DNA of 64,000 nt from positions 620,001-684,000 of the forward strand of contig NZ_JASGBP010000001.1 of NCBI RefSeq assembly GCF_030053345.1, in the 5' to 3' direction. Shown piece after piece: positions 9,735 to 57,975 of the stretch. Numbering within the stretch: position 1 is the stretch's first letter; every line of letters starts with the position of its first letter. The notes under the pieces are model-generated. The model was given only the letters and a program-made list of their open reading frames with translations, was not told the DNA's origin and ran no database searches. The DNA is from Flavobacterium sedimenticola. GTDB lineage: Bacteria; Bacteroidota; Bacteroidia; Flavobacteriales; Flavobacteriaceae. A program made the position numbers and the translations under genes.

Positions 9735-9769
9735 TGTGAATAGTTTTATAATTACGTTATCGTTGAATT

Positions 9770-9796
9770 CAAAGATAGTAATATTTTGTATTACAA
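9770..9796 (-). promoter_or_regulatory. Promoter with 17-bp palindromic operator, copy 2
   Basis: On the minus strand a -7 motif TATCTTTG (9770-9777) lies below TTG (9794-9796). The 16-nt spacer is shorter than the usual 19-20. The palindrome GTAATA-N5-TATTAC (9778-9794) fills this spacer, an ideal place for repression. The promoter drives the exported-protein gene starting at 9734. Confidence 0.6.
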
Positions 9797-9904
9797 ATAT
9801 GTTAGGGAAACATGATTACCCTTTCGGCGATGTTTTACTTTTTTTGTTAATAACTAAAATTGATTGGAAGTTTAATAAGAATTAACTTTGAAACAAACAA
9901 AAAA

Positions 9905-9923
9905 GCCGAGGGGTAAACTCGGC
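9905..9923. other. Short hairpin in the 9.7-10.2 kb gene-free stretch
   Basis: GCCGAG / CTCGGC form a 6-bp stem with a 7-nt loop, preceded by an A-run. Read on the minus strand, that A-run is a U-run, so this may be a weak terminator for leftward transcripts. The gene-free stretch 9735-10226 otherwise holds the promoter/operator at 9770-9796 and the candidate small RNA described separately. No coding frame is seen in it. Confidence 0.4.
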
Positions 9924-9972
9924 AATTTATTGATAAATGTTTTTTTCTTTGTTAAAGAAAATTAAGTTAGAT

Positions 9973-10088
9973 TTTACCTTTCTGAGGATAAGAATCAATA
10001 AGTAACTTAGTTTTTTTGGAGAGGTGTAACGGGATGTTAAACGCTCCGCCGGTTTTTAGACCCATCTGTTGGCGCAGGTGGGTTTTTT
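9973..10088 (+). ncRNA. Candidate small RNA with strong terminator
   Basis: In a 490-bp stretch without genes, the plus strand has TTG at 9949-9951, then 23 nt, then TACCTTTC (9975-9982), close to the TAnnTTTG consensus. About 100 nt downstream is a strong intrinsic terminator (stem ACCCATCTG / CAGGTGGGT at 10060-10083, then six T). The middle is GC-rich compared with its flanks. No start codon with a reasonable frame is seen. It runs opposite to the phage lytic genes. Candidate only, exact start uncertain. Confidence 0.35.
10060..10088 (+). terminator. Rho-independent terminator
   Basis: A 9-bp stem (ACCCATCTG with CAGGTGGGT, one G-U pair) and a 6-nt loop are followed by TTTTTT on the plus strand. 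No plus-strand protein gene precedes it, which is why a small RNA is suggested upstream. Confidence 0.7.
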
Positions 10089-10224
10089 GTTATTGCAAAT
10101 ATAGTGCACTTATCAAATAAAAAAAACATTTTTGTTATTTTTTTGAATTACTAAAATCCTTCCTAATTTTCGCGTTTTGTCCCGATGGGGAATTTAAGTT
10201 GTAAAAAATATTCTGTTAGCAACC

Positions 10225-10234
10225 GGTTATAAGA
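10225..10234 (-). other. attC R''-like remnant at the last cassette end
   Basis: Read on the minus strand, GTCTTATAAC includes the stop codon of the 90-aa gene. It is the exact reverse complement of GTTATAAGAC at the start of the same cassette (10509-10518), as expected for the R'' and R' boxes of one circular cassette. No L''/L' arms follow, so the site looks truncated or recombined into phage backbone. A nearby GCTAAC lies at 10215-10220. Confidence 0.45.
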
Positions 10235-10499
10235 CAGTCGTGGAAATTGCGTCATCGACTGGATGCTTGTTTAAACCCGCTTTTTCCATTTCCCGGAATA
10301 GCTTAACGAAAGCATCTTTAACACGTGGATAATTTTTTGCAAATCCACCACTCATAGCCATTCTGTAATTAATTGATTTGAAGACTTCCAATTCATCTTT
10401 AGGATATTCGATAAGGTTTAGATAATAATCACCATTACCCCCAAAATCCATATAAAAATGAACATCCCTGATATCGCAATCATCTGTTTTTAGCGCCAT
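10227..10499 (-). CDS. Cassette gene C: uncharacterised 90-aa protein
   Basis: A 90-residue soluble protein, acidic at the N-terminus (MALKTDDCDIRDVHFYMDF), with no recognised motif. Its start lies 18 nt after the G/TT boundary of an attC-like site, and its stop codon lies inside an R''-like box, both typical of integron gene cassettes. It reads in the same direction as the surrounding phage genes and has no obvious promoter of its own. Function unknown. Confidence 0.65.
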   Translation of the reverse strand: MALKTDDCDIRDVHFYMDFGGNGDYYLNLIEYPKDELEVFKSINYRMAMSGGFAKNYPRVKDAFVKLFREMEKAGLNKHPVDDAISTTVL

Positions 10500-10508
10500 A
10501 ATTCGACC

Positions 10509-10644
10509 GTCTTATAACCGCCGCTAAAAGAAATTGCTGGCGTGCGGTTGGTTGAACATTTATTTTTCACGAAGTATTTTTATCGTAGCGGAGAGAACTC
10601 GTTCCGCTTGCACCGCAACTTCGTTTAGCGGTCACTCGTTAGCC
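10509..10644 (-). other. attC-like recombination site 3 (cassette boundary)
   Basis: An imperfect palindrome of 136 bp. Outer boxes are GGCTAAC (10638-10644 on the minus strand) and GTTATAAG (starting at 10518). Inner arms at 10610-10631 and 10521-10545 pair over about 20 nt with two small bulges. The central loop has about 64 nt. It shares TAACGAGTGAC and GCGGTTATAAG with site 1. These are the R''-L''-L'-R' parts of an integron attC site. The crossover G/TT would lie at 10518/10517. Confidence 0.7.
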
Positions 10645-10650
10645 GCTAAC

Positions 10651-10956
10651 CTAAGACACGTGCTTAACAACCCCATTTTCATCAGGATTTCCCCATTTTC
10701 TTTTTTTGTTGATTTCAAATTTTTCCTGAATGGCATTGCAAATGTCTTGGTATGTCATACCATCGGCAGCAGCCGCGCCAAAAAGAAGAAAAAAGCAGTC
10801 TGCAAACTCTAATCTTTTATCAATACCATCAATGGCAACATCAACAGCAAGTTCCTCGATTTCTTCTTTTAGGTGTTCGATTTTAGAAAATGCTGTTGCT
10901 TGACCGAAAGTTTCTTTTTGCCAAGCAATAATCTCGTTAAATTGTTGTTCTTTCAT
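10651..10956 (-). CDS. Cassette gene B2: DUF550/MazG-like nucleotide pyrophosphohydrolase
   Basis: A 101-residue protein. An acidic EEIEELAVD helix (residues about 31-39) and an EFADCFFLLFGAA helix (about 50-62) match the metal-binding EExxE and ExxD pattern of all-alpha NTP pyrophosphohydrolases. The C-terminal KKRKWGNPDENG resembles the DUF550 phage group. Such enzymes hydrolyse dNTPs and may adjust nucleotide pools or counter nucleotide-based defence. It follows gene B1 by 8 nt with no attC between them, so both belong to one cassette. Confidence 0.7.
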   Translation of the reverse strand: MKEQQFNEIIAWQKETFGQATAFSKIEHLKEEIEELAVDVAIDGIDKRLEFADCFFLLFGAAAADGMTYQDICNAIQEKFEINKKRKWGNPDENGVVKHVS

Positions 10957-10964
10957 TTTATCTT

Positions 10965-11252
10965 TTATTTTAAAGATTCAAGTCTGTCTATTTCTGCAGC
11001 AATCAAGGCTCCGGCGATTATTAACCTTTCTTTATAACTCTTTTTGCACAGTCTTTCAAACCATTCAACATCCCAATTTACAGGGATAAAACAAGACCTT
11101 ATTTCGGGCATCAATAGGGTTTCTGCGGCTTGAATAAGCTGCCGGTTATCATACCATTCAGGATGATTTGCATGGTGTTCACCCGTAAAACCATGTTTTT
11201 CAATTTGCTTTTGTCTCTCATCCGATATTAATTCAATTCCTGATTTTTTCAT
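10965..11252 (-). CDS. Cassette gene B1: conserved phage-type protein (95 aa)
   Basis: A 95-residue protein with an N-terminal ISDERQKQIEKHGFTGEHH block followed by a helical C-terminal half with LIIAGALIAAEIDRL. I have seen similar N-terminal blocks in small proteins of many phages, often beside nucleotide-metabolism genes, but no function is established. It is the first gene of a two-gene cassette. The leader of 45 nt after the G/TT boundary is AT-rich. Confidence 0.7.
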   Translation of the reverse strand: MKKSGIELISDERQKQIEKHGFTGEHHANHPEWYDNRQLIQAAETLLMPEIRSCFIPVNWDVEWFERLCKKSYKERLIIAGALIAAEIDRLESLK

Positions 11253-11290
11253 AATTATTATTTATAAAAGTTAATATTTAATTGTTACGA

Positions 11291-11451
11291 CCGATAACCT
11301 CAGGCTATGGTCAATTGCTACTTTGTTTTTTATTTTTCAGCTTCGCTGTGGCTTCTTTTTTTCAGTCGCTTTCATGCTTTCCGCAATTTCAAGTAAACTT
11401 GAATTGCTCTCGCATACGCAACTGCACATAGCCTGCCTCCCGTTATAAGCC
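11291..11451 (-). other. attC-like recombination site 2 (cassette boundary)
   Basis: Outer boxes are GGCTTATAAC (11442-11451, minus strand) and GTTATCGG (11291-11298). Inner arms CAGGCTATG and CATAGCCTG pair perfectly, with further pairing towards the loop (GCAGTTGC with GCAATTGA). Spacers on the two sides differ in length, as in real attC sites. In the circular form of cassette A, GGCTTATAAC would face GTTATAAGCC, its exact reverse complement. The loop is long (about 100 nt) and holds a second hairpin (11383-11406) and a 30-codon frame. Confidence 0.7.
11337..11429 (-). CDS. Possible 30-aa microprotein inside attC-like site 2
   Basis: An ATG in the L'' arm opens a 30-codon frame starting MCSCVCE, with three cysteines in the first six residues and a Lys-rich tail, ending at TGA. 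It lies wholly inside the long loop of the attC-like site. A chance frame of this length is quite possible. It is listed because of the unusual composition and position. Confidence 0.2.
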   Translation of the reverse strand: MCSCVCESNSSLLEIAESMKATEKKKPQRS

Positions 11452-11772
11452 ATTAGCAGACCGAGACCTTGAAAGACTTCCGTTAATGATTCCATACAGG
11501 TACGCTAAGACGACTTCTTTACTTCCGCTGCCGGAAGCTTGTTGCCTCGCTTGATATGGTTCTCGGTCAGGATTGCAATCGTGAAATATTGAAAATACCT
11601 GTTTTAGCTTTGGTTTTCTGAATAATCTTTGTTCCTCAATCCATTCACTTTGCCTTATCATTAGGCTTTTATCATGCTCTAATGCTTCTTGAAAAATTTT
11701 ATTGACATCGTGGTCAATCACTTTTTTCATTTCAACTCGGTCTGTTTTGTCTATGTAAATGTAAAGTCCCAT
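11443..11772 (-). CDS. Cassette gene A: uncharacterised 109-aa protein
   Basis: A 109-residue protein with no recognised motif. The N-terminus (MGLYIYIDKTDRVEMKK) is followed by a charged helical middle and a Ser/Arg/Gly-rich C-terminus. Its start is 16 nt after the cassette boundary of site 1, and its stop codon lies inside the R'' box of site 2. The compact fit between boundaries (11298-11788, 491 bp) is that of a classic single-gene integron cassette. Function unknown. Confidence 0.65.
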   Translation of the reverse strand: MGLYIYIDKTDRVEMKKVIDHDVNKIFQEALEHDKSLMIRQSEWIEEQRLFRKPKLKQVFSIFHDCNPDREPYQARQQASGSGSKEVVLAYLYGIINGSLSRSRSANGL

Positions 11773-11779
11773 ATTCTAA

Positions 11780-11870
11780 GGCTTATAACCGCGGTTTGGC
11801 GAAACCGCAGATGTTAATATTTATTTTCACTTTTTTTTTGGCGGCTTCGCCAAGCCGTCACTCGTTACTC
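11780..11870 (-). other. attC-like recombination site 1 (cassette boundary)
   Basis: The most regular of the three sites, 91 bp long. Outer boxes are GAGTAAC (11864-11870) and GTTATAAGCC (11780-11789). The 18-nt inner arms (11841-11858 and 11791-11808) pair with only two or three non-Watson-Crick positions and contain a GGCGAA core. The loop is A-rich. The stop codon of the upstream gene is part of R''. Crossover would fall between G11789 and T11788 on the minus strand. Confidence 0.75.
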
Positions 11871-12089
11871 AAATCTCAATTCGTTTAATATCATAACCCA
11901 CCATGCTAAAAGCATGAATAGGTTGAAAAAAACGATTAAGCAGATAACTTTGATTTTTCGCTTCGATTTATTTCTTAGGTAGTCCTCAACCATGTTTAGC
12001 TCACGCCATTCGTTAAAGGCGCCGTAATTAATCACGCAGGTTACAAGTAGCATAACCAAAGTGATGCCTATAAATGATAATGTGTCCAT
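11865..12089 (-). CDS. Small two-helix membrane protein (74 aa)
   Basis: A 74-residue protein with two hydrophobic helices (residues about 4-24 and 49-69) flanking a basic loop containing NKSKRKIK. It is therefore predicted to be an inner-membrane hairpin with the loop in the cytoplasm. It begins one base after the PcfJ stop, so it is expressed from that operon. Its 3' end lies in attC-like site 1, but no matching boundary is seen upstream, so it may be backbone rather than a cassette. Function unknown. Confidence 0.6.
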   Translation of the reverse strand: MDTLSFIGITLVMLLVTCVINYGAFNEWRELNMVEDYLRNKSKRKIKVICLIVFFNLFMLLAWWVMILNELRFE

Positions 12090-12090
12090 A

Positions 12091-13392
12091 TTATGCTGAT
12101 TGTTTTAGAGGTTTGCTTTTTCTGTATTGGGATGCCTTTCGAATTGCTGGAATGCTTTTCTTCATCAATTCAAGTATTCTATCATGATGCTTGCTGTTGT
12201 CATTATGAATTCCTCTTGCCTGAACTATGCTCCATGTGATCATCTCAATTTCTATTGTTTCTGTCCTTACTCCATTTATCCGGGCAGATAAAAGGAGTGA
12301 ATTCGTTTTCAAATGATAGTTGTTCGTGAATACACAATGCTTTAGCTCTTTACCCTCTTGCTTGAACTCATCAACGTTTTGCAGCGGCTTAATACTTAGG
12401 TCTCCATCAATAAACTCAAGAGATAAAAACCTGCTCATTCTTTTGATATAGTTCTCATTCTGCTTTTGTAAGTCCTGAATCTTTTCCTGCTCTCTTTGAA
12501 TTCTTCTCTTTTCAACATAGCGATCATGCTCTGCTTTTAGGTTCTCCGGGCAAATGTATTTTGGACTATGAATGTCCTTCCCAAAACCACGAAGTAAATC
12601 CAAGTAGTCATACCATATACCAGGGTCATTAATTTGGTAACCTTGGCGCATTGCTATTTTGATTTGCGGCCAATATGAATAATATTTATTATCCTTGTGA
12701 ACAGCATGTTGCAAAAGTTCTTTTTGCTTTGTTTTGAGAAGTGTTTCTATCTTAGAACAGCTTTGTATCTTACGCATCAAAACTCTGTAATCACATTCAT
12801 GGTCAAAGCAATCTAGTGTATACTTTTGGAATATTGGAATAAACTCAGCTCGAGGGAAATTGTAGTCTGAAGCAAATATGTCGTAATCATTGCTTCTCCA
12901 ACCGCTGTTATTGATGTATCTGACCTCATAAGTTCCATGAAAGCCATCACCGTACCGGCAAGCAAGCTGACCAACGATAACTCTTTTTCCCTTTTCATAA
13001 TCTGTCCATTCCTCAAATAATCTATGAGTTGAGTATACCGGCTTCTTTTTCTTTGACATGTTCTTCCAACATGAAAAATATCTGATAACCTGAAACCGAT
13101 CTACCACTTGAGCATGTCCGTAAGTAATAATTCTCACCGCTTGACCACCGTTTTCAGTCTTAATCTTTTTCAGATTCTTTTTGCACGATGGACACTCTAC
13201 TCCTACAAGTTCTTCCTGCCATAGCTGATTAGGTTTCCATTGGTGATTACACTCCAAACAGATTAAGTTCTTGTAATGGGTAGTGTAGTAAAACTCATGC
13301 TTGGATATCATGTAAGGCTCATGCTCATTTATGCTGAGAAGTTTTTGATGCAAATTCCAAACCTCTTGCTGTAATTTAGTTTTTGGCTTCAT
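12091..13392 (-). CDS. PcfJ-like protein
   Basis: A 433-residue protein. The N-terminal part holds a zinc-ribbon-like set of cysteines (CLEC near residue 47 and CPSC near 67). The C-terminal 120 residues match the PcfJ domain, with EGKELKHCVFTNNY near 350 and a VQARGIHND motif near 400. PcfJ was named on the conjugative plasmid pCF10, and phage and mobile-element members are common. The exact role is unknown. It lies two bases downstream of the PcfK-like gene, the usual pairing. Confidence 0.85.
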   Translation of the reverse strand: MKPKTKLQQEVWNLHQKLLSINEHEPYMISKHEFYYTTHYKNLICLECNHQWKPNQLWQEELVGVECPSCKKNLKKIKTENGGQAVRIITYGHAQVVDRFQVIRYFSCWKNMSKKKKPVYSTHRLFEEWTDYEKGKRVIVGQLACRYGDGFHGTYEVRYINNSGWRSNDYDIFASDYNFPRAEFIPIFQKYTLDCFDHECDYRVLMRKIQSCSKIETLLKTKQKELLQHAVHKDNKYYSYWPQIKIAMRQGYQINDPGIWYDYLDLLRGFGKDIHSPKYICPENLKAEHDRYVEKRRIQREQEKIQDLQKQNENYIKRMSRFLSLEFIDGDLSIKPLQNVDEFKQEGKELKHCVFTNNYHLKTNSLLLSARINGVRTETIEIEMITWSIVQARGIHNDNSKHHDRILELMKKSIPAIRKASQYRKSKPLKQSA

Positions 13393-19915: not shown

Positions 19916-19929
19916 AATTTCAATTTTAG

Positions 19930-19999
19930 TGGAGAGGCCTGGAGTCGAACCAGAATCTCTCGGTTTTCACACGAGCGCATACCACTATGCTATCACTCC
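19930..19999 (-). tRNA. tRNA-Phe(GAA), phage-borne and slightly degenerate
   Basis: The minus strand folds as a 70-nt tRNA. The D stem is GCAT/ATGC, the anticodon loop is GTGAAAA with anticodon GAA, the T stem is TCTGG/CCAGG with loop TTCGACT, and the variable loop has 4 nt. CCA is not encoded. Acceptor pairs 5-68 (T-T) and 7-66 (A-C) and the last anticodon-stem pair (T-C) do not match. It may be functional with reduced stability, or decaying. It lies between early phage genes in the same direction. Confidence 0.75.
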
Positions 20000-53790: not shown

Positions 53791-56562
53791 ATGGATAGGT
53801 TTTCCTTTTTAAATGCAGCACACACCGAATTTTTTGCCGATTTATACGAACAATACCTTCAAAATCCCGACAGCGTAGAGCCAAGTTGGCGCGCCTTTTT
53901 TCAAGGGTTCGACTTCGGAATGACGACCTATAACGAGGAGCAAGCCGAAGGGCAGGTCGTTTATGCCTCAGACAGCAATCAGGATTGTAGCGTTGTTTCC
54001 GATAAATTGCAAAAAGAATTTAATGTTTTACGATTGATTGATGGCTACAGAACCCGTGGTCATTTGTTTACCCAAACCAATCCGGTACGTGAAAGAAGAA
54101 CCTATTCTCCTAATCTCGATATTGAAAATTTTGGTTTGTCAACGGCCGATTTAGATACTGTGTTTGATGCCGCTAAGATTCTAGGAAAGCAACCCACAAC
54201 GCTACGACAAATCCTCGAGCATCTTAAAAATATTTACTGTCAGCACATCGGTATCGAATACATGCATATGGAAAACCCGATTTTTGTGAATTGGGTACAA
54301 GAGCGAATCAACAGTAACGATAACCAGCCGAATTTTAATGCCGAACAAAAGAAACACATCTTGGGCAAGTTAAATGAAGCGGTTTCTTTCGAAAACTTTT
54401 TGCATACTAAATATGTCGGACAAAAACGCTTCTCACTCGAAGGAGGTGAAAGTTTAATTCCGGCTCTCGATGCCGTGATTGAAGCTGCAGCCGAAAAAGG
54501 CGTAGAGCATTTTGTAATGGGAATGGCACACCGCGGTCGTTTGAATACGTTGGCCAACATCTTCGGAAAACCAACCCAAGATATCTTCTCCGAATTCGAT
54601 GGAAAAGACTACGATAAAGAATATTTCGACGGCGATGTAAAATACCACTTAGGGTTAACCGCCGAGCGAAAAACCAGTTCGGGTAAAAAAATCAACATTA
54701 ACTTGGCACCGAATCCATCACACTTGGAGACCGTAGGTGCTGTGATTGAAGGAATTACCCGTGCCAAACAAGATAAATATTTCCCGGATGATTTCTCCAA
54801 AGTATTGCCTATTGCCGTTCACGGGGATGCGGCCGTAGCCGGACAAGGTATCGTGTATGAAATTATTCAAATGTCGCAACTCGACGGGTATAAAACCGGT
54901 GGTACCATTCACATCGTGATTAACAACCAAGTGGGCTTTACCACCAACTATCTCGATGCGCGTTCGTCTACCTATTGTACCGACATTGCCAAAGTGACCT
55001 TGTCTCCGGTATTGCACGTTAACGCCGATGATACCGAAGCCGTTGTACACGCGATGTTGTTTGCGTTGGACTTCCGTATGCAGTTTGGTCGCGATGTGTT
55101 TATCGATTTGTTAGGGTATAGAAAATACGGTCACAACGAAGGCGATGAGCCGCGCTTTACCCAACCGGTATTGTACAAAATCATTGCCCGTCATAAAAAC
55201 CCAAGAGATATTTATGCCGAACAATTGATTACCTCGGGTATAGTCGATGCGGCTTACATCACCAAAATAGAAAACGAATACAAAGCCAAGTTGGATGAAA
55301 ACCTACAGGCTTCTCGTAAAAAAGATAAAACCATCATCAAGCCGTTTATGCAAGATGAATGGAAAGGATTCGTACAGGTTTCTGATGACGAAATGCTGAA
55401 AAAAGTCGATACCCAATTCGATAAAAAGAAATTGGACGCCATTTTAGAAACCATTTCCACCTTACCGGCCGATAAAAAATTCATCAACAAGATTACCAAA
55501 ATCGTTACCGACCGCAAAACGATGTACGACAACGACGCCATCGATTGGGGAACAGCCGAAACCTTGGCGTATGGTACGCTCTTGACTGAGGGATACGATG
55601 TGCGTATTTCCGGTCAGGATGTGGAGCGTGGTACTTTCTCGCACCGTCATGCCGTCGTAAAAGTGGAAGACAGCGAAGAAGAGGTAATTTTGTTAAATAC
55701 GTTAAAAGACAAAAAAGGAAAGTTCAACGTCTTCAATTCGTTTCTTTCCGAATATGGGGTTCTTGGGTTTGACTACGGTTACGCCCTAGCCAATCCGAAT
55801 GCCTTGACCATTTGGGAAGCGCAGTTCGGGGATTTCTCCAATGGCGCCCAAATCATGATTGACCAATACATTTCGTGTGGGGAAGACAAATGGAACAACC
55901 AAAACGGAATCGTACTCTTGTTACCGCACGGCTACGAAGGACAAGGCGCCGAACACTCGTCGGCCCGTATGGAGCGTTACTTGCAATTGTGCGCCCGTCA
56001 CAATATGTATGTAGCCGATTGTACCACACCGGCCAACTTCTTCCACTTGTTGCGTCGCCAAATGAAAACGAAATTCCGCAAACCGTTGGTGGTATTTTCG
56101 CCAAAAAGTTTGTTGCGTCACCCGTTGTGTGTGTCCACTCGCGAAGAATTGTACAACGGTCAGTTCCAAGAAGTCATCGACGATACGTCGGTTGACAAGA
56201 AAAAAGTAAAAACACTGGTATTCTGTACCGGAAAATTCTATTACGATATTTTGGCCGAAAGAGAAAACTTGGGTCGAAATGATGTAGCTTTGGTACGCCT
56301 TGAGCAGTTGTTCCCGTTACCGGTGGAGCAATTGAAAGCTGTGATTGCGAGTTATCCGAATGCCGACGATTTCGTTTGGGCACAGGAAGAACCAAAAAAC
56401 ATGGGTGCTTACAGCTATATGCTCATGAATTTCGACTTGGTGCCGTGGCGTTTGGCTTCGTTAAAAGCCTATGCTGCACCGGCTGCCGGAAGTCACACGC
56501 GCGACAGAAGACGTCATGCCGATGCGATTCGTATGGTATTTGACAAGAATTTATTCCGTTAG
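53791..56562 (+). CDS. sucA: 2-oxoglutarate dehydrogenase E1 component
   Basis: A 923-residue thiamine-diphosphate enzyme of the TCA cycle. The N-terminal E1 motif FLNAAHTEFFADLYEQY, the catalytic His region GMAHRGRLN (about residue 245), and the diphosphate site with GDAAVAGQG followed by INNQVGFTT (about 345-380) are present. The transketolase-like C-terminal half contains GYEGQGAEHSSARMER. It decarboxylates 2-oxoglutarate and passes succinyl to E2, encoded by the next gene. Confidence 0.96.
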   Translation: MDRFSFLNAAHTEFFADLYEQYLQNPDSVEPSWRAFFQGFDFGMTTYNEEQAEGQVVYASDSNQDCSVVSDKLQKEFNVLRLIDGYRTRGHLFTQTNPVRERRTYSPNLDIENFGLSTADLDTVFDAAKILGKQPTTLRQILEHLKNIYCQHIGIEYMHMENPIFVNWVQERINSNDNQPNFNAEQKKHILGKLNEAVSFENFLHTKYVGQKRFSLEGGESLIPALDAVIEAAAEKGVEHFVMGMAHRGRLNTLANIFGKPTQDIFSEFDGKDYDKEYFDGDVKYHLGLTAERKTSSGKKININLAPNPSHLETVGAVIEGITRAKQDKYFPDDFSKVLPIAVHGDAAVAGQGIVYEIIQMSQLDGYKTGGTIHIVINNQVGFTTNYLDARSSTYCTDIAKVTLSPVLHVNADDTEAVVHAMLFALDFRMQFGRDVFIDLLGYRKYGHNEGDEPRFTQPVLYKIIARHKNPRDIYAEQLITSGIVDAAYITKIENEYKAKLDENLQASRKKDKTIIKPFMQDEWKGFVQVSDDEMLKKVDTQFDKKKLDAILETISTLPADKKFINKITKIVTDRKTMYDNDAIDWGTAETLAYGTLLTEGYDVRISGQDVERGTFSHRHAVVKVEDSEEEVILLNTLKDKKGKFNVFNSFLSEYGVLGFDYGYALANPNALTIWEAQFGDFSNGAQIMIDQYISCGEDKWNNQNGIVLLLPHGYEGQGAEHSSARMERYLQLCARHNMYVADCTTPANFFHLLRRQMKTKFRKPLVVFSPKSLLRHPLCVSTREELYNGQFQEVIDDTSVDKKKVKTLVFCTGKFYYDILAERENLGRNDVALVRLEQLFPLPVEQLKAVIASYPNADDFVWAQEEPKNMGAYSYMLMNFDLVPWRLASLKAYAAPAAGSHTRDRRRHADAIRMVFDKNLFR

Positions 56563-56702
56563 GAGCTGATTCCCGCTGTCCGCTATATCTTTTGTTTTGT
56601 CCTTCGACTCCCGAAGTTTCGGTACAGGATAACAAAACAAAAGGATGCCGCTTCCATCGGGGCTAGATTTGAGATTAAGAGGAGAATGTCCGGTGGACAT
56701 TC
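56563..56702 (-). repeat. Structured flavobacterial intergenic repeat between sucA and sucB
   Basis: On the minus strand, TAGCCCCGATGGAAGCGGCA opens an element of about 100 bp that ends with an AGCGGGAATCAGCTCC-type tail next to the sucA stop. Inside, TTTTGTTTTGT and ACAAAACAAAA form an 11-bp stem enclosing a CTTCG/CGAAG hairpin. A second perfect palindrome, GAATGTCC-GGT-GGACATTC, follows at 56684-56702. Similar ends occur at 36202 and in part at 62721. It may affect sucA mRNA stability or read-through to sucB. Confidence 0.65.
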
Positions 56703-56745: not shown

Positions 56746-57975
56746 ATGATTTTAGAAATGAAAGTCCCTTCACCGGGCGAATCGATTAAAGAAGTAGAAA
56801 TTGCCACTTGGTTAGTACAGGACGGTGATTATGTAGAAAAAGACCAAGCCATTGCTGAGGTAGACTCTGATAAAGCTACCTTAGAATTACCGGCAGAAGC
56901 CAGTGGTATCATTACCCTGAAAGCTTCCGAAGGTGATGCAGTAGCGGTAGGTGCCGTGGTTTGTTTAATCGACACCGGTGCCGCCAAACCAAGCGGTGCA
57001 GCTCCGGCTCCGGCTGCTGAAGTTAAAGCGGAAGCACCGAAAGCAGAGGAGAAAAAACCAGAAGCACCCAAAGCGGCTCCGGCTCCGGCCACAACGTATG
57101 CGGCTCAAACACCGTCTCCGGCGGCTCGTAAAATATTAGAAGAAAAAAACATACAACCCTCTGACATCGTAGGCACCGGAAAAGGCGGACGCATTACCAA
57201 AGAAGATGCCGTTAATGCGGTACCTTCCATGGGAACGCCAACCGGAGGTAGCCGCGGTACCGAAAGAACCAAGTTGTCGATGTTGCGTCGTAAAGTAGCC
57301 GAAAGATTAGTATCGGCCAAAAACGAAACGGCGATGTTAACTACGTTCAACGAGGTGGATATGACGAATATCTACGCGTTGCGCGATCAGTACAAGGAAG
57401 AATTCAAAGCCAAACACGGTTTAGGCTTAGGCTTTATGTCGTTCTTTACCAAAGCGGTAACCCGCGCGTTACAATTATACCCGGATGTGAACTCGATGAT
57501 TGACGGGCAAGAGAAGATTTCTTATGACTTCTGCGATATTTCGGTAGCGGTTTCCGGCCCTAAAGGTTTGATGGTTCCGGTTATGCGCAATGCCGAATTA
57601 TTATCGTTCCGCGGGGTAGAAGCCGAAATTAAAAGATTGGCGTTGCGTGCACGTGACGGACAAATCACCGTGGACGAAATGACCGGCGGAACGTTTACCA
57701 TTTCTAACGGTGGTGTTTTTGGAAGTATGTTGAGTACGCCGATTATTAATCCGCCGCAATCGGGGATTTTGGGGATGCACAACGTGGTAGAAAGACCTAT
57801 CGTAAGAAACGGACAAATCGTCATTGCACCGGTAATGTATGTAGCGTTATCGTATGACCACCGTATTATTGACGGGCGTGAGTCGGTTGGATTCCTAGTA
57901 GCGGTCAAAGAAGCGTTAGAAAATCCGGTTGAAATTTTAATGGACAACAACCCTAAGAAAGCTTTAGAGCTGTAG
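56746..57975 (+). CDS. sucB: 2-oxoglutarate dehydrogenase E2 component (dihydrolipoamide succinyltransferase)
   Basis: A 409-residue enzyme. The N-terminal lipoyl domain carries the lipoyl-lysine in EVDSDKATLELPA (about residue 43). An Ala/Pro/Glu/Lys-rich linker follows, then a peripheral-subunit-binding domain (PAARKILEEKNI). The catalytic acyltransferase domain ends with LSYDHRIIDGRE (about 366), where the His and Asp act. It transfers succinyl from E1 to CoA. Confidence 0.96.
   Translation: MILEMKVPSPGESIKEVEIATWLVQDGDYVEKDQAIAEVDSDKATLELPAEASGIITLKASEGDAVAVGAVVCLIDTGAAKPSGAAPAPAAEVKAEAPKAEEKKPEAPKAAPAPATTYAAQTPSPAARKILEEKNIQPSDIVGTGKGGRITKEDAVNAVPSMGTPTGGSRGTERTKLSMLRRKVAERLVSAKNETAMLTTFNEVDMTNIYALRDQYKEEFKAKHGLGLGFMSFFTKAVTRALQLYPDVNSMIDGQEKISYDFCDISVAVSGPKGLMVPVMRNAELLSFRGVEAEIKRLALRARDGQITVDEMTGGTFTISNGGVFGSMLSTPIINPPQSGILGMHNVVERPIVRNGQIVIAPVMYVALSYDHRIIDGRESVGFLVAVKEALENPVEILMDNNPKKALEL

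Follow-up and report, generated by a model that had tools for sequence, protein, structure and literature searches.

A probable mobile-cassette array in a Flavobacterium prophage, related to insertion-less integron-like arrays of Bacteroidota and their phages

Introduction

Integron integrases are reported to have gained single-strand cassette capture through the I2 domain (PMC7790495). According to the accessible part of the same source, deletion of I2 abolishes the function of IntI1 and intermediates are lacking, and the additional domain is described elsewhere as a defining feature of IntI (PMC9668308, accessible part). With IntegronFinder and HattCI, clusters of attC sites without an integrase (CALINs) or integrons were reported in 21 phages of 10,705 genomes, and IntI1 recombined five of six tested sites from phage-borne attC clusters (Qi et al. 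2023, PMC9892861, accessible part). Phage attC clusters are already published; no insertion-less system of the present kind turned up in the papers searched, and the open full-text papers (preprints and most subscription papers lie outside this set) describe no I2-less integrons in Flavobacterium and no phage branch. Herein, we analyse a 64,000-nt stretch of the 3.14-Mb genome of Flavobacterium sedimenticola (contig NZ_JASGBP010000001.1, G000:C1:620001-684000; hereafter the window), in which three attC-like sites, S1 to S3, separate small leftward genes of a prophage downstream of pcfK (PF14058) and pcfJ (PF14284).

We consider it highly probable that this region is a small array of mobile cassettes in a prophage, belonging to the phage branch of an integron type that occurs in Flavobacterium and in other members of the Bacteroidota. 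Within that branch, the window prophage is a member without the array integrase. It is also likely that Bacteroidota phages own a distinct integron system, with a short I2-less integrase, an attI of its own and a pool of cassettes with inverted genes, and that this system is kin to I2-less bacterial integrons.

Results

The prophage makes up the first ~24 kb of the window and continues leftward past its edge. All three sites lie on the minus strand: S1 (11783..11870) belongs to cassette A, S2 (11292..11448) to cassette B and S3 (10512..10644) to cassette C. They are imperfect palindromes of one plan: NNNTAAC is followed after ~6 nt by a long L arm, a variable middle leads to the L' arm, and 2 nt separate this arm from GTTANNN. 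An earlier reading of the window made from its letters (the sequence-only reading) had placed attC-like imperfect palindromes here, and they were confirmed by direct reading, by scripts and by a site model, R3. It was also right that S1 and S3 share two sequences, TAACGAGTGAC and GCGGTTATAAG, while the outer boxes it had described as RYYYAAC and GTTRRRY fit only loosely. R3, trained without window sequence, scored S1 at 54.1 bits (E 2.8e-11; 21.3 bits in the other reading), S2 at 26.9 bits (E 3.8e-4) and S3 at 51.9 bits (E 1.1e-10), the E-values being computed over 190 kb.

A strict arm-and-spacer detector matched S1, S2 and S3 and nothing else in the window, and had no match in reversed sequence (284 kb) or in other sequence (199 kb); it was written with S1-S3 already known and is insensitive (7/24 sites in locus L232, 0/9 in L258). 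An attC finder lacking spacer rules proved noisy. The exact motif TAACGAGTGACNGCT was, among 60 genomes, present only in the window's own. In single-strand folding the S1 hairpin was more stable than shuffled sequence (z -2.9), and the folds of S2 (z -1.8, L arms paired in the predicted fold) and S3 (z -1.7) stood weakly above shuffles. The long-range hairpin of S3, like that of site C in the viral contig L097, was not recovered as an unconstrained minimum-energy single-strand fold.

A cassette that was once circular should have complementary end boxes, a relation not required of the two boxes within one array site. In the window, two cassettes carry this signature exactly, as the sequence-only reading had claimed. 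The boxes flanking orf109, GGCTTATAAC and GTTATAAGCC, are exact reverse complements, and so are those flanking orf90, GTCTTATAAC and GTTATAAGAC. Cassette A (11442..11863, minus strand; S1 and orf109) accordingly has the inner ends GTTATAAGCC and GGCTTATAAC with exact 10-nt complementarity, and cassette C (10226..10637, minus strand; S3 and orf90) the inner ends GTTATAAGAC and GTCTTATAAC with the same. The terminal box GTCTTATAAC (10226..10235, minus strand) marks the final cassette boundary, the place at which related phage arrays continue with a putative attI and then the integrase. Cassette B (10638..11441, minus strand; S2, orf95 and orf101) has ends complementary at 2/6 positions.

The same signature was counted in other arrays at a threshold of at least 5/6 end positions. 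In 11 bacterial arrays, 107/125 cassettes had complementary ends, against 14/137 box pairs within sites and 179/1868 other pairs. The three first-found phage arrays gave 6/9 cassettes versus 1/11 within sites and 1/26 other pairs, and the 71 groups of viral loci described below gave, among the matches listed, 149/190 versus 11/260 and 48/1145. These counts are a strong signature, read from sequence, of cassettes that would excise as circles. A boundary complementary to the first cassette's box was present near the recombinase in 5/5 bacterial and 6/7 phage loci tested. In bacterial arrays, the attI-like boundary follows the stop codon of the recombinase by 95-153 nt (5/5 tested); in phage arrays the last boundary lies ~43-52 nt before the recombinase start codon (6/7) and is followed by an AT-rich stretch, the putative attI. 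Related loci thus carry a candidate attI beside the integrase, and phage isolates described below hold it in empty and filled versions.

The site family is widespread in the genus. Model R2, seeded by the window and L097 sites, gave matches at E<=1 in 54/150 genomes of the genus; twenty regions around these matches contained 109 matches at E<=1, and R3 was built from those 109 only. R3 sites at E<=0.001 were found in 127/150 Flavobacterium genomes searched. The host genome itself carries an array of 26 R3 sites, one of them weak (E 0.4), on another contig (C12:261949-283117). A second cluster of 4 sites is located ~100 kb from that array (C12:160231-162793; loci L232 and L233).

The sites covary as paired arms. 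Pairing was seen in 87.4% of cells versus 69.9% in shuffles, and double-change cells numbered 445 versus a shuffled mean of 159. The L arms were 92.6% paired with strong covariation, and the AAC/GTT core is nearly invariant, as in attC boxes. Pairing at the three outer R positions is seen in only about half of the sites, which is expected if the two halves of a site come from different cassettes. Among the 107 distinct sites of the R3 alignment, one arm position is non-paired, mostly C.A, in 99, and a G.T pair is invariant (107/107). The C.A mismatch at the fixed position L+5 is present in 98/109 bacterial versus 154/286 viral sites. A clear one-base bulge in the arms was found in 5/109 R3-type, 24/278 viral and 0/3 window sites versus 27/34 classical sites; the extrahelical base typical of attC is accordingly rare in R3-type and viral sites and absent from the window sites. 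A cruder scoring, in which bulges are freer, gave 44/109, 100/278 and 34/34 for R3-type, viral and classical sites. The commonest spacers are GTTTTG and GGTTCT in viral and GTTCCG in bacterial sites. In the classical Bacteroidota arrays inspected (L055-L094), the attC spacers measure ~2-3 and 6 nt when read in gene orientation.

The sequence-only reading had advised a search for IntI elsewhere in the genome. What the host carries is a related tyrosine recombinase of 345 aa beside the array on contig C12, ~640 nt from the 26 sites; it falls below the curated IntI cut-off and is 67% identical to the recombinase of Flavobacterium aciduliphilum. Relatives head arrays elsewhere, co-directional with the cassette genes and with the sites downstream in the opposite reading. 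An array adjoins the recombinase in 14/20 fetched loci, which were partly chosen after nearby sites were known; of the remaining 6, five have contig ends within 0.2-2.3 kb and one (L259) has sites on the other side. When loci were picked by protein search alone, 17/80 had downstream sites in the opposite reading, many of the 80 being distant relatives or contigs ending soon after the gene. The fitting loci include ones from Flavobacterium, Algoriphagus, Algibacter, Seonamhaeicola and Winogradskyella, whereas L295, L297 and a single site of L283 run against the pattern. In genome G171, the array and its recombinase are flanked by housekeeping-type genes.

These enzymes lack the hallmark insertion of IntI: the I2 insertion is absent in 24/24 aligned array-type recombinases and present in 24/24 aligned IntI. 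At E<=1e-40, IntI was found in 0/299 genomes of the genus, so that no IntI with I2 was seen there; the phylum search that served as positive control gave IntI over the cut-off in 105/395 Bacteroidota genomes. In a tree, the array-type recombinases and IntI form separate groups, both apart from XerC/XerD of the same genome (support 100/98), in a tree that holds two Xer rows and long branches. The predicted structure of the phage enzyme has a mean predicted local distance difference test score (pLDDT) of 87.7, and the nearest solved structures are XerA (5hxy), followed by a XerC-like protein (4a8e) and IntI4 (2a3v). A long recombinase form of 590-609 aa with an extended N-terminal region occurs near arrays in L260, L261 and L262, from three genomes. 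Related recombinases of 320-328 aa, which share 34-35% identity with the enzyme of the host, occur at G162:C1:997066-1014823, with six copies within 18 kb, and at several places in G068:C1.

A strict bacterial-type pattern scan of viral contigs matched one stretch, and a relaxed pattern scan of IMG/VR matched at least 120; the viral numbers are therefore minimum values, drawn from a non-random set of phage loci. They include near copies (L385 is the contig of L097), which were joined into 71 groups for the cassette counts. Among the matches listed, R3 found at least 278 sites at E<=0.001 in 79/80 loci, with up to 18 sites per stretch. Viral gene polarity is the reverse of the bacterial one. 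Among the matches listed, 163 viral cassettes have the gene running with the reading of the site, 1 against it and 26 have no open reading frame (ORF); the bacterial counts are 2 with, 109 against and 14 without an ORF. This reversal suggests that the viral arrays are other than misfiled chromosomal arrays. In L410 (IMGVR_UViG_3300008110_000040, 171,732 bp), which has six sites, 4/5 gaps have no ORF of at least 50 aa.

A recombinase of ~267 aa without the insertion is encoded in 8/86 viral loci among the matches listed, one of them as a fragment, and in every one of those 8 it sits after the array on the gene strand. On the opposite strand of locus L416 (11828-12982) lies the gene of a further tyrosine recombinase, which overlaps the end of the array recombinase and is ~26% identical to the prophage integrase of the window. 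In the cargo of two arrays, 4/10 proteins passed the Pfam cut-off, including DNA methyltransferases and a YopX-family protein; DNA methyltransferases are among the cargo of L416 and L382.

A relative of the phage recombinase is encoded by the Polaribacter phage Freya, of which ten isolates have seven genome lengths. As in the window, pcfJ comes before the variable stretch, which in Freya is followed by the integrase. In Freya_1, attI follows immediately after ...TTTACAAC, ~46 nt before the integrase. At this same boundary Freya_10 has 4.9 kb inserted and Freya_6 a different cassette; Freya_2 and Freya_5 are shorter versions with the same attI at the end, and Freya_8 equals Freya_10 across the stretch read. 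Freya_3, 4, 7 and 9 lie outside the comparison. In Freya_1, 2, 5, 6 and 10, every attI junction read falls at AAC|, before the integrase. R3 found one or two weak-to-fair sites (33-39 bits) in the Freya arrays; at E<=1 it found none in Leef_1, Ingeline_1 or P12002L, the last being a Polaribacter phage of the set of Qi et al. (PMC9892861, accessible part). In the main text of the paper on the isolation of Freya, as far as accessible, integrons and cassettes go unmentioned (PMC8776804).

By analogy with the Freya junctions, the breaks in the window most likely fall at AAC|, that is at 11864/11863, 11442/11441, 10638/10637 and 10226/10225. The sequence-only reading had expected them at 11788/11789, 11297/11298 and 10517/10518; the Freya junctions place them at the other box. 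A cassette would therefore be a site followed by its gene in the direction of transcription, not a gene followed by its site. Starts had also been said to lie 16-18 nt past the boundary, which holds for orf109 (16) and orf90 (18) and fails for orf95 (45 nt); stops fall in the 3' box for orf109, orf90 and orf74 and outside it for orf101.

The cassette genes, all on the minus strand, have viral relatives, and two of the four led to viral contigs bearing sites. One is orf101 (10651..10956), a dATP/dGTP pyrophosphohydrolase-like gene (PF04447, PHROG 13210) whose homologue in L097, 77% identical, forms a single-gene cassette with the ends GTTAGCCGC and GCGGCTAAC; L097 is an array of such single-gene cassettes with complementary ends. 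The first array site of L097 (1857-1995) is a near-perfect palindrome with arms reaching past the usual box and no spacers. The other is orf109 (11443..11772), which encodes a phage protein with relatives in 5 IMG/VR contigs, one of which, L014, holds its relative inside a site array. The phage protein gene orf95 (10965..11252; PHROG 9763, E 1.5e-8) has relatives encoded in 411 viral stretches. For orf90 (10227..10499), a 64% identical gene is present in one viral contig, L101, in which R2 found no site.

On the other side of the array stand the small-protein gene orf74 (11865..12089, minus strand), which has its stop within the S1 box and may be either a backbone gene or a former cassette, and the backbone gene pcfJ (12091..13392, minus strand; PF14284). 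Comparison with viral arrays puts the usual place of attI and integrase at 9735..10225; here this stretch has no minus-strand ORF of at least 40 aa and no recombinase of the array family. Such a recombinase was not found in the window, L095 or L096, save for a weak match to the prophage integrase, a recombinase-like gene at C1:603617-604867 that is weakly similar to the tyrosine recombinases used in the comparison. Inside the prophage, a tRNA-Phe gene (window 19929-19999) lies between two phage genes. Elsewhere in the window, a Flavo-1 RNA (56565-56668, minus strand, 73.6 bits) lies between the ORFs 53791-56562 and 56746-57975.

Discussion

The array may be understood as follows. The tyrosine recombinase would excise cassettes as circles through the hairpin sites and, by recombination at the AAC/GTT box, insert them into the AT-rich attI. 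Cassette genes of phages point toward attI and the integrase, so that a phage operon could transcribe them. In the window phage, attI and integrase would have been lost or never retained, so that its cassettes could be mobilised only in trans, by the C12 recombinase of the host or by a recombinase from another phage. The sequences themselves show the site family, how the arrays are organised, the recombinase and putative attI adjoining related arrays, the complementary boundaries and the cassette differences among phage isolates. Recombination by the array enzyme, a single-strand substrate, strand choice and action in trans are all inferred from the comparison.

Several points weigh against reading the region as a mobile array. 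The activity of the recombinase is a prediction from sequence, and S2 is a weak site. The unit of orf95 and orf101 fails the complementarity test (GTTATCGGTC versus GCGGCTAAC); it is probably two fused cassettes, since orf101 is a cassette of its own in L097, whose GCGGCTAAC box persists in the window. S1 and S3 have the spacer GAGTGA, which is present in 0/286 viral and 0/109 bacterial sites, so that no immediate donor was identified there. In viral contigs, the relative of orf90 and 4/5 relatives of orf109 have no adjoining sites, and 49 of 80 orf95 loci were searched with R2 without a site at E<=1. R3 is not fully independent, as it derives from matches of R2, itself seeded by the window and L097 sites, and a few of its 20 source regions may be non-chromosomal (L219 is a 33-kb contig). 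The claim of integron-type cassettes is supported by the boundary complementarity and the viral arrays, but the sites are not of the classical attC type. A classical attC model (R1, 34 Bacteroidota attC sites adjoining IntI genes) scored the window at about background, with S3 at 10.4 bits (E 1.7), S1 at 8.4 bits (E 5.8) and S2 unlisted, so that this classical model misses the sites.

That result also bears on the idea that an ordinary, I2-bearing IntI left the region behind as a CALIN of classical cassettes. In its favour, IntI integrons abound in Bacteroidota outside this genus, CALINs have been described in phages (PMC9892861, accessible part), and the architecture of core boxes with unequal spacers is related. 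This origin is nevertheless improbable: the genus search found no IntI, the clear bulge of classical sites is rare in R3-type and viral sites and absent from the window, and R3-type arrays adjoin a recombinase without the insertion. As palindromes between co-directional small genes that can fold as hairpins, the sites could also be transcription terminators or repetitive extragenic palindrome (REP)-like hairpins that do not recombine. We regard this as very improbable, given that complementarity across whole cassettes, arrays beside recombinases and cassette differences between isolates are unexpected of such elements.

Array variation might instead arise when repeated boxes recombine homologously or by slippage, with the neighbouring recombinase serving lysogeny only. 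The Freya paper, in its accessible part, takes the integrase to indicate that the phage is temperate (PMC8776804). The Freya junctions share short similar stretches, ~20 nt for Freya_1 versus Freya_10, which also counts against cassette movement; for single Freya cases, slippage or homologous recombination is possible. As a general account it has little probability. Although the left flanks differ from junction to junction, every junction read joins attI at one and the same base; L416 has, beside its array recombinase, a further tyrosine recombinase that resembles the prophage integrase; and the array and recombinase of G171 stand between housekeeping-type genes. A mobile-cassette array thus remains the preferred reading. 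The further suggestion of the sequence-only reading, that phages capture and move cassettes, is borne out by the viral arrays, some with an integrase of their own, and by Freya isolates that differ by cassettes.

If Bacteroidota phages do own a distinct I2-less system, the capture of hairpin cassettes needs no I2 domain, and phages exchange accessory genes one cassette at a time. A natural integron-like I2-less system, with sites in 127/150 genomes searched of the genus and in phages, makes the claim that I2 is necessary directly testable, and the Freya isolates are a ready experimental system. Phages would also have a dedicated means of exchanging accessory genes, DNA methyltransferases among them.

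With IntI integrons (class 1, Vibrio and Bacteroidota chromosomal), the arrays described here share small cassettes, GTT/AAC hairpin sites, the circular-cassette signature and an attI-like site adjoining a tyrosine recombinase. Unlike them, they have a recombinase without I2, and a bulged base is rare, with a C.A or other non-pair plus an invariant G.T in its stead; the bacterial arrays listed here also differ in having the recombinase co-directional with the cassette genes. The array enzyme resembles Xer proteins in that XerA (5hxy) is its best solved relative, but the tree, with the two Xer rows and long branches mentioned above, separates the array-associated group from XerC/XerD. The phage CALINs of Qi et al. 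(PMC9892861, accessible part) are alike in being attC clusters without an integrase in phage genomes, with methyltransferases as cargo; unlike in those, a phage-encoded insertion-less recombinase and inverted gene polarity recur here across viral contigs.

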